Shown here in pieces: positions 5,012-14,662 of a stretch of 28,859 nucleotides of DNA; positions within the stretch are counted from its first letter, which is position 1; every line of letters begins with the position of its first letter. A program made the translations under genes and the position numbers. The notes under the pieces were generated by a model. The model did no database searches. It saw only the letters and a list, made by a program, of their open reading frames with translations, and was not told the origin of the DNA. The DNA is from a virus. The stretch spans positions 1 to 28,859 of IMG/VR virus record IMGVR_UViG_3300043436_002236; one strand, given 5' to 3'.

Positions 5012-6013
5012 ATGAAACATATATCTTTATTTAGCGGTATTGGTGGTTTTGATTTGGCAGCAGAATGGGCAGGATGGACAAACGTGGCATCCTGCGAAAT
5101 AAATAACTTTGGGAACAAGGTTTTAGAATATTATTGGCCACAGGCATACCACCACCGCGACATTCACACACTAACCGGACAAATTTTAAACGATGAAATA
5201 CAACAAAGATTTGGATCAGATTGGAAAGCAGATGGAACTATTCTTACAGGGGGGTTCCCATGTCAACCATACTCCACAGCAGGAAGACGACTTGGAAAAG
5301 AAGACGAGCGCCATCTTTGGCCCGAAATGCTTAGAATTATTCGGGAGGTTCAACCGGAATGGATTGTGGGCGAGAACGTTCGCGGCCTTGTTAGTTGGTC
5401 AGCAGGGTTGGTATTCGAGGAGGTGTGGGCTGACTTGGAGGCTATTGGGTACGAAGTACAACCGTTTATACTTCCAGCTGCAAGCGTCAACGCACCACAC
5501 AAACGAGAGCGGGTTTGGTTTGTTGCTTACGCCAACAACCAGAGAGGAAATACAGGATTTAGACAAGTTCAAGCAAAGGATGGAGAAATATCCAAACGGA
5601 ACAACTATGCCAAATTTAGCTACTCAGGTATTTTCGATGCTGCCTACTCCGATAGCTGGCGATTGGAAAGGACAAAAAAGGAGCGATGGAACAGCGAGTA
5701 TGTTAAGCGGAGTAGTAGCGTTGATGCTACCAACGCCAACTACGCGGGATTGGAAGGGAGCAAGGAGCAGCGAAGCGCTGGAAGCAGCGGGCCGAACCAA
5801 TGCAAACAGCCTTCCGGATTTTTACGCTCAGACTGGACAAACTTCCCAACTAAACCCGCAGTTTGTTCTCGAAATGATGGGTTTTCCGAGCGATTGGTGT
5901 CTATTACCTTTCCAAAATGGAGAAACGAAAGTATTAAAGCAGCAGGAAACGCAATAGTACCACAAGTGGCCTATCAAATTTTTAAGGCCATTAATGAGTA
6001 CAGGAGCTTATAA
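5012..6013 (+). CDS. dcm: DNA C5-cytosine methyltransferase (333 aa)
   Basis: This enzyme transfers a methyl group from SAM to C5 of cytosine in DNA. Motif I FSGIGGFDLA is at residues 7-16; motif IV GGFPCQPYS has the catalytic Cys at about 84; motif VI ENV is at 121-123; motif VIII has RER at about 165-167; the late GNAIVP motif is at about 312. All core motifs are present, so the enzyme should be active. The target-recognition region (about 172-290) is Ser/Asn/Lys-rich and low in complexity. That same DNA encodes a long second frame (5193-5957), which may constrain it. It starts 3 bp after the previous gene. No cognate restriction enzyme is visible, so it probably protects phage DNA or mimics host methylation. 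Confidence 0.93.
   Translation: MKHISLFSGIGGFDLAAEWAGWTNVASCEINNFGNKVLEYYWPQAYHHRDIHTLTGQILNDEIQQRFGSDWKADGTILTGGFPCQPYSTAGRRLGKEDERHLWPEMLRIIREVQPEWIVGENVRGLVSWSAGLVFEEVWADLEAIGYEVQPFILPAASVNAPHKRERVWFVAYANNQRGNTGFRQVQAKDGEISKRNNYAKFSYSGIFDAAYSDSWRLERTKKERWNSEYVKRSSSVDATNANYAGLEGSKEQRSAGSSGPNQCKQPSGFLRSDWTNFPTKPAVCSRNDGFSERLVSITFPKWRNESIKAAGNAIVPQVAYQIFKAINEYRSL
5193..5957 (+). CDS. Out-of-frame (+1) overlapping gene inside dcm (254 aa)
   Basis: A 254-codon ATG-started frame lies wholly within dcm, shifted +1. Its translation looks like a real protein: CGLTWRLLGTKYNRLYFQLQ, then two copies of LPTP-x-x-x-DWKG (with MLPTPIAGDWKG and MLPTPTTRDWKG), and near the end LNPQFVLEMMGFPSDW. I recognise these LPTP...DWKG and LNP-x-FV-x-x-MGFP-x-x-W motifs from phage proteins that accompany cytosine methyltransferases. 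That recognition is from memory and was not searched. A chance frame would not carry such periodic, family-like motifs. Both frames therefore appear to code. Function is unknown; a companion or specificity role for the methyltransferase is inference. Confidence 0.6.
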   Translation: MKYNKDLDQIGKQMELFLQGGSHVNHTPQQEDDLEKKTSAIFGPKCLELFGRFNRNGLWARTFAALLVGQQGWYSRRCGLTWRLLGTKYNRLYFQLQASTHHTNESGFGLLLTPTTREEIQDLDKFKQRMEKYPNGTTMPNLATQVFSMLPTPIAGDWKGQKRSDGTASMLSGVVALMLPTPTTRDWKGARSSEALEAAGRTNANSLPDFYAQTGQTSQLNPQFVLEMMGFPSDWCLLPFQNGETKVLKQQETQ

Positions 6014-12317: not shown

Positions 12318-13448
12318 ATGAAAAACACCGATCTAATTAGGCAGCTAATAACAGATGACGTTAGCTCGCTTGAATTGCCACAATTGGTTGATTATATCAA
12401 CGAGTTGAGGTATTTTATTCATCAATATTCACCTTTTAAAACAGAACCAGTAGATTATGTAAAATGGGTATGGAATGAAAAAGTAGTATCTAACGACTAC
12501 AATCCAAATAAAGTAGCTCCTCCGGAGATGGAACTACTTGAAATATCCATCATGAACGATGGCTACACGCAACCAATTGTTACGTGGCCGCATTCTAACA
12601 AAATAGAAGTTATTGATGGTTTTCACCGTTCAAGAGTTGGTAAAGAATCTAAGATTGTAAAAAACAGGGTGATGGGATTTTTACCAACTGTTATTATTAG
12701 AAAAGAGCAGGAAGACAAAAATGATCGCATAGCTTCTACTATCAGGCACAACCGCGCAAGAGGCAAACACCAAATTGACGCAATGTCTGAAATAGTTATT
12801 GAGCTTAAAAACCGTAACTGGAAAAATGAACGTATAGCGCGAGAACTTGGCATGGACGAGGATGAAGTTTTAAGATTGTGCCAAATTACCGGTCTTGAAC
12901 ATTTGTTTACTGATAATGACTTTTCTATGTCGTGGGAAGCGTCAGATAGCGCAACGGATGACGATTTTGAGCCGCTAACAGACGATGTAGAAGGAGATTT
13001 TGGCCGAACCGTTAATACATCGGATCAGGAAAGAGTTTTTTACACCTACGATAAATGGGAGTGCCACAAAGCCGGTTTTTACGCATCAAAATTTGAAGGA
13101 CTAACAAAAACAGAAGCGGAGCAAGGTTTTGCAGATTTATTAAAAGATAGTGCCGCGTTTGAGTCTGCCTTAAATGGAGTTATAAATGATTGGTATTATA
13201 GCTGCCAGCACTATTTAACAAATAAGGCAATGAATAGAATTGCCTGGTTAGGTCAAGCGGCCGTTTGTTATGCTACAGGAATACCAAGTACTTACTCTGC
13301 CGGATGGAATTTACTTACAGAGGAAGAACAAAGTACAGCTAATTTAATAGCGCTTAAATACTTGAACATTTGGAGGGCTAATAATAACAAATCGGAATTA
13401 AGCCTTGAAGAGGCATTATCAGTAGGAAGACAAGTAAACATTTACTAA
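12318..13448 (+). CDS. IbrB-like ParB-domain protein (376 aa)
   Basis: Residues about 55-140 form a ParB-type domain: YNPNKVAPPEMELLEISI, GYTQPIVTW, and the box VIDGFHRSRV (about 98-107). A KorB-like helical region follows (AMSEIVIELKNRNWKNERIARELGMDEDEVLRLCQITGL, about 155-195). The C-terminal 180 residues are acidic and unassigned. The pairing with a PAPS-reductase-family gene 2 bp downstream is the IbrB-IbrA arrangement known from E. coli prophage-like regulators. Base composition is visibly richer in A+T than the flanking terminase and tail genes, suggesting a moron acquired as a unit. Confidence 0.75.
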   Translation: MKNTDLIRQLITDDVSSLELPQLVDYINELRYFIHQYSPFKTEPVDYVKWVWNEKVVSNDYNPNKVAPPEMELLEISIMNDGYTQPIVTWPHSNKIEVIDGFHRSRVGKESKIVKNRVMGFLPTVIIRKEQEDKNDRIASTIRHNRARGKHQIDAMSEIVIELKNRNWKNERIARELGMDEDEVLRLCQITGLEHLFTDNDFSMSWEASDSATDDDFEPLTDDVEGDFGRTVNTSDQERVFYTYDKWECHKAGFYASKFEGLTKTEAEQGFADLLKDSAAFESALNGVINDWYYSCQHYLTNKAMNRIAWLGQAAVCYATGIPSTYSAGWNLLTEEEQSTANLIALKYLNIWRANNNKSELSLEEALSVGRQVNIY

Positions 13449-13450
13449 TT

Positions 13451-14662
13451 ATGGCAACTAAAATTTATCAGGATATAACAGTTTTACAGGCGGCAAAAAA
13501 TAGAATATCAAAAGTATTTGACGATTTTAGCCGCATTTATATCAGTTTTTCAGGCGGTAAGGATAGTACCGTAATGTCGCATTTAGTTTTAGAAGAAGCT
13601 AAAAAACGTAATGTAAAAGTTGGCTTTCTTATTATTGACTTGGAGGCACAATACACGGACACTATCAAGCATATTGAAAACATGGTTGAAATGTATAAAG
13701 ATTATATTGACCTTCATTGGTTTTGTGGTGAGCTTTTACTTCGTAATGCGGTAAGTAATTACGAGCCAAGATGGGTGTGTTGGGATGAGGATAAAAAATC
13801 TACTTGGGTGCGCGAAAAGCCAAAACTTGCTGCTGATTTATCCCAGTACGATTTTTACGTTCCAAAAATGGAATTTGAAGAACTGATGGTAATTTTTGGC
13901 GACTGGTATTCAAGAGGCGAAAAAACCGCTGCATTTATTGGTATCAGGGCGGATGAAAGTTTGCACCGCTACCGGGCAATAGTAAGCAGGAAAGAGGGTC
14001 TAACGCATAAGGGATACAAATGGACAACAAAGGCTACACCGAACTTATTTAACGTTTATCCAATTTACGACTGGAGAACAGAAGATATTTGGGTTTATCA
14101 TGGCAAAAACAAGCATTTGCCGCACAATAGAATTTACGATCAAATGACCAAAGCAGGCGTAAAGCTAAGTCAACAGCGTTTATGTCAGCCTTATGGCGAC
14201 GATCAAAGGCGCGGCCTTTGGCTTTATCATATTATTGAGCCTGATACATGGTATAAATTAGTATCAAGGGTTAATGGCGTTAATTCCGGAGCGCTTTATA
14301 TTCAAGAGAACGGAAACATGACCGGATACCACTCAATAACAAAACCGGATGGGCATACTTGGGAAAGCTTTTGTAATTTACTTTTAAAAACTATGCCGAA
14401 AAAAACGCGCGACCATTACAGATTTAGGTTTTCTAAATTTATTGCAAGCTGGCAGGATAGAGGCTACGACAAAATACCAGACGAAGCTCCACACGATTTG
14501 GAAATTAAATGCTGGGCGCCTTCTTGGCGTAGAATGTGCAGGGTTATTTTGCGAAACGACTACTGGTGCAAAGGCTTGGGTCAGTCGCAACCATTGTCAG
14601 ATGCTTATCAAAAGTTCAAGGATATAAAAACAAAAAGAAAAATAGCTGAGCAAATCGGATAA
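13451..14662 (+). CDS. IbrA-like PAPS-reductase-family protein, DUF3440 type (403 aa)
   Basis: The PP-loop ISFSGGKDST (about residues 31-40) is the ATP-pyrophosphatase signature of the PAPS reductase/DndC superfamily. Later, GIRADESLHRYRAI (about 160-173) and YPIYDWRTEDIWVYHGKNK (about 205-225) are typical of the group. The C-terminal third has the DUF3440 pattern, including CQPYGDDQRRGLWLYH and CWAPSWRRMC. Known relatives activate a substrate by adenylation; the substrate for IbrA is not established. It starts 2 bp after the ParB-like partner and is closed by a terminator at 14692-14724, so the two form one isolated cassette. A link to DNA sulfur modification is speculative. Confidence 0.8.
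   Translation: MATKIYQDITVLQAAKNRISKVFDDFSRIYISFSGGKDSTVMSHLVLEEAKKRNVKVGFLIIDLEAQYTDTIKHIENMVEMYKDYIDLHWFCGELLLRNAVSNYEPRWVCWDEDKKSTWVREKPKLAADLSQYDFYVPKMEFEELMVIFGDWYSRGEKTAAFIGIRADESLHRYRAIVSRKEGLTHKGYKWTTKATPNLFNVYPIYDWRTEDIWVYHGKNKHLPHNRIYDQMTKAGVKLSQQRLCQPYGDDQRRGLWLYHIIEPDTWYKLVSRVNGVNSGALYIQENGNMTGYHSITKPDGHTWESFCNLLLKTMPKKTRDHYRFRFSKFIASWQDRGYDKIPDEAPHDLEIKCWAPSWRRMCRVILRNDYWCKGLGQSQPLSDAYQKFKDIKTKRKIAEQIG

Follow-up and report, generated by a model that had tools for sequence, protein, structure and literature searches.

The dcm-like C5-cytosine methyltransferase gene of this virus encloses a second gene, P2, in its +1 reading frame, and the two frames very likely specify the alpha and beta subunits of a single split cytosine-C5 methyltransferase, P2 being the beta subunit. 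Judged from the sequences, both frames are open, conserved and under selection, the methyltransferase motifs are divided between them, and P2 shares homology with the C-terminal portion of methyltransferases in split or fused form. A preliminary description of this DNA had recorded the nested gene and assigned no function to it; our results favour a role as the beta subunit of a methyltransferase.

In the proposed enzyme, the alpha subunit (5012-6013) would supply the SAM-binding and catalytic motifs I-VIII as well as motif X, and the nested beta subunit (5193-5957), probably translated from the ATG at 5193, would supply motif IX. The LPTP-repeat part of the beta subunit may serve in target recognition, a task that ordinary single-chain enzymes assign to the region separating motif VIII from motif IX. 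From motif VIII to motif X, the alpha frame would then chiefly encode a linker whose sequence is moulded by the beta frame. Alpha and beta would form a heterodimer, the active enzyme, which would methylate the phage DNA and most likely protect it from host restriction.

The locus and its two reading frames

The window, which is the whole stretch of 28,859 nt that was analysed (positions 1 to 28,859 of the IMG/VR virus record IMGVR_UViG_3300043436_002236), holds terminase, endolysin and replication genes. No restriction gene was recognised among the neighbouring genes of the window that were checked. Downstream of the terminase, a ParB-like partition/nuclease gene adjoins a phosphoadenosine phosphosulfate reductase gene (12318-14662).

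The dcm gene (5012-6013; this and all features below are on the plus strand) encodes a protein of 333 amino acids with motifs I-VIII and X, the proposed alpha subunit. P2 (5193-5957) starts with ATG and encodes 254 amino acids, and its codons begin at codon position 2 of dcm. The two translations were searched separately against protein families. The dcm protein matched PF00145 (E=5.9e-45), phrog_363 (E=1.2e-70) and TIGR00675 (E=3.2e-40). P2 matched phrog_1008, which is labelled 'DNA methyltransferase' (E=1.2e-24), and gave no match in Pfam or NCBIfam. The preliminary description, which had linked the P2 motifs to proteins that accompany phage methyltransferases, was right in this respect.

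In the dcm frame, motif I (FSGIGG, 5030-5047) lies outside the overlap, and motif IV with the catalytic cysteine (GFPCQP, 5252-5269) and motif VI (GENV, 5369-5380) lie inside it. Motif VIII (KRERVW, 5501-5518) is the final motif ahead of the variable region, and motif X (GNAIVP) follows at 5945-5962. The catalytic and cofactor motifs are conserved in the dcm alignment (A6), where the PCQ of motif IV is invariant. The P2 frame contains a degenerate first copy of the LPTP-type repeat (LLTP, 5523-5534), the repeats LPTPIAGDWKG (5640-5672) and LPTPTTRDWKG (5727-5759), and the motif IX-like sequence LNPQFVLEMMGFPSDW (5850-5897), whose Met-Met-Gly codons are read as Asn-Asp-Gly in the dcm frame. All the motifs quoted in the preliminary description, namely two LPTP-x-x-x-DWKG repeats, the ending LNPQFVLEMMGFPSDW and GNAIVP, were thereby located. 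Its placing of the overlap in the dcm recognition region holds, with the minor correction that the overlap already takes in motifs IV, VI and VIII of dcm.

Openness and selection in the second frame

When the codons of the window gene were shuffled synonymously with the dcm protein fixed, 7.3 stops were expected in the P2 frame, and the probability of an open frame was about 5e-5. Relatives of P2 were drawn from isolated phages, IMG/VR contigs and bacterial genomes (mostly Bacteroidota). In this set, whose loci were chosen by P2 itself, P2 overlaps a dcm in 317 of 317 loci and does so in the same phase in 308; no stand-alone P2 distant from any dcm was present among these first 317 loci. A second and unbiased sample comprised 80 relatives picked by dcm residues 1-60 alone, which lie outside the overlap. 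P2 is present in phase +1 in all 80, and the median open run is 252 codons in phase +1 as against 41 in phase +2. These results confirm the claim of a 254-codon gene in the +1 frame of a cytosine methyltransferase gene. The same description had called such an overlap rare, which is wrong, as nearly all members of this methyltransferase family have the layout.

Synonymous sites of dcm are constrained where P2 overlaps them. Among relatives, the divergence at fourfold sites falls from 0.47 ahead of the overlap to 0.25 across motifs IV-VIII and 0.11 in the recognition region, and it returns to 0.37 after the end of P2. In 109 pairs of relatives, the third codon position of dcm takes 66% of the changes ahead of the overlap, a share that drops to 56% across motifs IV-VIII and to 33% within the recognition region; there, the third position of P2 changes fastest. 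Constraint on the recognition region is stronger in the P2 frame than in the dcm frame, which bears out the earlier suggestion that it is shaped by the other frame.

The nonsynonymous/synonymous ratio of P2 is 0.51 [0.44-0.58] in its second, recognition-region half and 0.63 [0.57-0.69] in its N-terminal half. In the same phase, control frames gave 0.74 [0.69-0.78] for neighbouring genes and 0.85 for the N-terminus of dcm itself. Because the control genes give 0.74 and not 1, the raw ratio in the +1 frame was set aside as sole evidence. The second half of P2 is clearly below both controls, whereas the N-terminal half is just modestly below 0.74 and therefore leans more on the fourfold-site test. 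Purifying selection was thus found in both frames, as is expected of an overlapping pair of protein-coding genes, and the earlier view that both frames are coding is upheld.

It is hardly credible that P2 is a mere shadow, that is, a +1 frame kept open and seemingly conserved by dcm conservation together with base composition. Chance open frames are plentiful in GC-rich relatives, and the relation between the frames makes some residues mirror each other; however, many loci have only 42-50% GC, the shuffled window gene would be expected to carry 7.3 stops, and fourfold sites in the recognition region are suppressed about four times. Moreover, the P2 motif is kept in relatives of the split layout (see below) despite many stops in their dcm frame, and because of this the conserved dcm residues at Asn-Asp-Gly are best interpreted as a side effect of P2. 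The shadow reading is contradicted by the tests that were run, and a chance open frame was ruled out by the synonymous shuffle, the unbiased sampling, and the fourfold-site and codon-position tests.

Nested, split and fused layouts

The same parts occur in three layouts, which we call nested (the type of the window), split and fused. In the nested layout, dcm carries motifs I-VIII and X, and P2 carries the LPTP repeats and LNPxFVxxMMGFPxxW. Among 308 distinct nested loci, a pattern test found the core of motif IX in 277 P2 frames and 2 dcm frames, and motif X in 286 dcm frames and 2 P2 frames. Counted from one frame to the other, motifs IX and X are a median of 18.7 codons apart.

In the 45 split loci, the alpha ORF has a median length of 199 amino acids and ends a median of 6 nt past motif VIII. 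P2 shares about 230 nt with it and continues as the principal open frame, which carries the repeats, a IX-like motif and motif X; past the end of alpha, the median number of stops in the alpha frame is 23. In the 29 fused loci, which are mostly GC-rich, a single ORF comprises motifs I-VIII, the repeats, IX and X. Homologues of P2 beyond dcm-overlapping frames were accordingly found, as 45 loci with the C-terminal half past the end of dcm and 29 fused loci.

A profile HMM of nested P2, which was trained solely on the first locus set (L001-L087), matched 45 of the 45 split loci with E values of 9e-33 to 2e-16. In hhalign comparisons, P2 aligned to the split beta proteins with a probability of 98.6 and to the fused enzymes with 95.5, and QLNPQFVLEMMGFPSDW of P2 was aligned with LRAEFVEWMMGLPEGW; in the profile alignment, QLNPQFVLEMMGFPSDW falls on motif IX of the fused enzymes. 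PHROG 1008 is also matched by the split and fused proteins, with E values of 1e-59 to 4e-62 for split beta. The pattern used for motif IX is loose and was written after the family had been seen, and a stricter one was found in 4 of the 45 split and 15 of the 29 fused loci. The split alignment retains the core F-x-E-W-M-M-G-x-P-x-G-W, and Pfam gave a weak methyltransferase signal for 2 of 28 split beta proteins (best E=3.5e-4).

In the split and fused loci too, for which few pairs were compared, fourfold divergence drops over the region of the N-terminal half of P2, though less strongly. In fused one-chain enzymes (within L419-L498), the +1 frame still matches the N-terminal half of P2, with some synonymous suppression.

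P2 might instead act separately, as a regulator, inhibitor or partner that does not complete the active site, its likeness to a methyltransferase C-terminus being ancestral only. We consider this unlikely. Its conserved N-terminal half, which runs over motifs IV-VIII and is foreign to a classical methyltransferase, would fit such a role, as would two kinds of loci in which P2 outlasts dcm. In L078 (2808-4500) and L079, the variable region of dcm is closed and P2 remains open, and in L410 (1335-2130), P2 is intact despite a premature dcm stop. Against this, motif IX is absent from alpha and lies in P2 in 277 of the 308 nested loci at a near-constant distance from motif X, and the same parts form one enzyme in the split and fused relatives.

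A single chain made by ribosomal frameshifting, in which a chain begun with alpha motifs I-VIII passes into the P2 frame and then either regains the alpha frame or ends at the P2 stop, is more improbable still. One-ORF fused enzymes do occur, and in three virus contigs (L025, L027 and L039) the N-terminus of dcm is fused in frame to P2 just past motif VI; these contigs, however, may carry indel errors. P2 is open and constrained upstream of any such site, across motifs IV-VIII, an ATG stands ahead of the conserved core in 341 of 346 P2 frames, and motif X could be reached only by two opposite shifts.

Several individual loci deviate from the three layouts or extend them. In L078 and L079, a stop closes the dcm frame after motif VIII, the variable region has many stops, and motif X later returns in the dcm frame; P2 is open there over 476 codons and has numerous WPTP repeats, a pattern that also counts in favour of the two-subunit reading. 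The joins of dcm and P2 in L025 (2144-2944), L027 (2793-3593) and L039 (2733-3797) adjoin a glycine-rich (G-rich) stretch and may reflect slippage, mutation or sequencing error; several virus contigs with frame breaks may represent sequencing errors. In an E. coli prophage, the P2 frame is open across essentially the whole 245-codon dcm gene (L417:2898-3635), and the +1 frame of a second, different dcm gene of the same prophage (L417:1-926) is likewise long and contains WPTP and LNPAHSRWLMGLP motifs. L418 (2874-3635) has one internal stop in each frame at the same place.

The number of LPTP repeats in P2 relatives is mostly 1-8. We raise, as a doubtful though conceivable extension, that these LPTP-x-x-x-D-W-K-G repeats, usually 1-8 in number and both gained and lost, are a new modular DNA-recognition unit. 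The beta subunit would then be an exchangeable specificity subunit, phages could shift their methylation targets by adding or dropping repeats in a frame concealed within the catalytic gene, and the N-terminal half may have an extra function.

When two conserved genes overlap at length on the same strand, the overlap is commonly put down to faulty annotation or regarded as a curiosity. In hundreds of methyltransferase genes from phages and prophages, the nested overlap is a standard arrangement, and several of these genes are annotated with one protein only. If the two-subunit reading is true, many phage methyltransferases now recorded as single proteins would show no activity when produced without their partner, and the enzyme would be lost if alpha were cloned or synonymously recoded. 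Together, the three layouts (fused, split and nested) make up a natural series for dividing one protein between two frames of one gene.

Comparison with known methyltransferases

The alpha chain has motifs I, IV (PCQ), VI (ENV), VIII and X of a C5-cytosine DNA methyltransferase, and motif IX is in the alpha chain in only 2 of the 308 loci. Compared with the monomeric enzymes M.HhaI and M.HaeIII, alpha aligns over motifs I-VIII but is without motif IX; the alignment with M.HhaI in the PDB (E=1e-16) stops at motif VIII. The AlphaFold model of one fused enzyme (pLDDT 82, pTM 0.77) resembles the structure of M.HhaI, which was its best PDB match in Foldseek (E=6e-16). The model of P2 alone was poor (pLDDT 58, pTM 0.26) and thus lends no independent fold support to the beta-subunit reading, and a comparison of the P2 C-terminus profile with the PDB found no methyltransferase. 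PHROG 1008 includes both the window P2 and the split beta proteins, under a family label that states neither a subunit role nor an overlap.

In M.EcoHK31I, a two-polypeptide C5-methyltransferase that recognises YGGCCR, the gene of the small subunit is nested in another frame of the gene of the large subunit. An EcoHK31I-like restriction-modification locus was sought in E. coli genomes, where prophage copies only were found. A literature search found no paper on this phage overlap, most subscription papers being outside the search.

M.AquI has motifs I-VIII on its alpha chain and IX-X on its beta chain (PMC3404938), a layout that equals that of the 45 split relatives and is seen only there. In the window, by contrast, motif X remains on alpha and the beta frame lies wholly inside the alpha gene. 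M.EcoHK31I is naturally split (PMC3439449), with motifs I-VIII and X on the large subunit and motif IX alone on the small one (PMC3404938). Likened by this described motif layout, alpha and P2 show the same division, with IX on the small chain in 277 of 308 loci, X on the large chain in 286 of 308, and P2 placed on motif IX in the profile alignment with the fused enzymes. The window pair differs in belonging to a phage, in having no recognised restriction gene among the adjacent genes that were checked, and in that P2 is longer (254 amino acids), with LPTP repeats and a conserved N-terminal half. Within the literature searched, the breadth of this arrangement in phages as a nested frame, the LPTP repeats and the nested, split and fused series appear undescribed, and a methyltransferase split with motif IX on a second chain is an already known concept.
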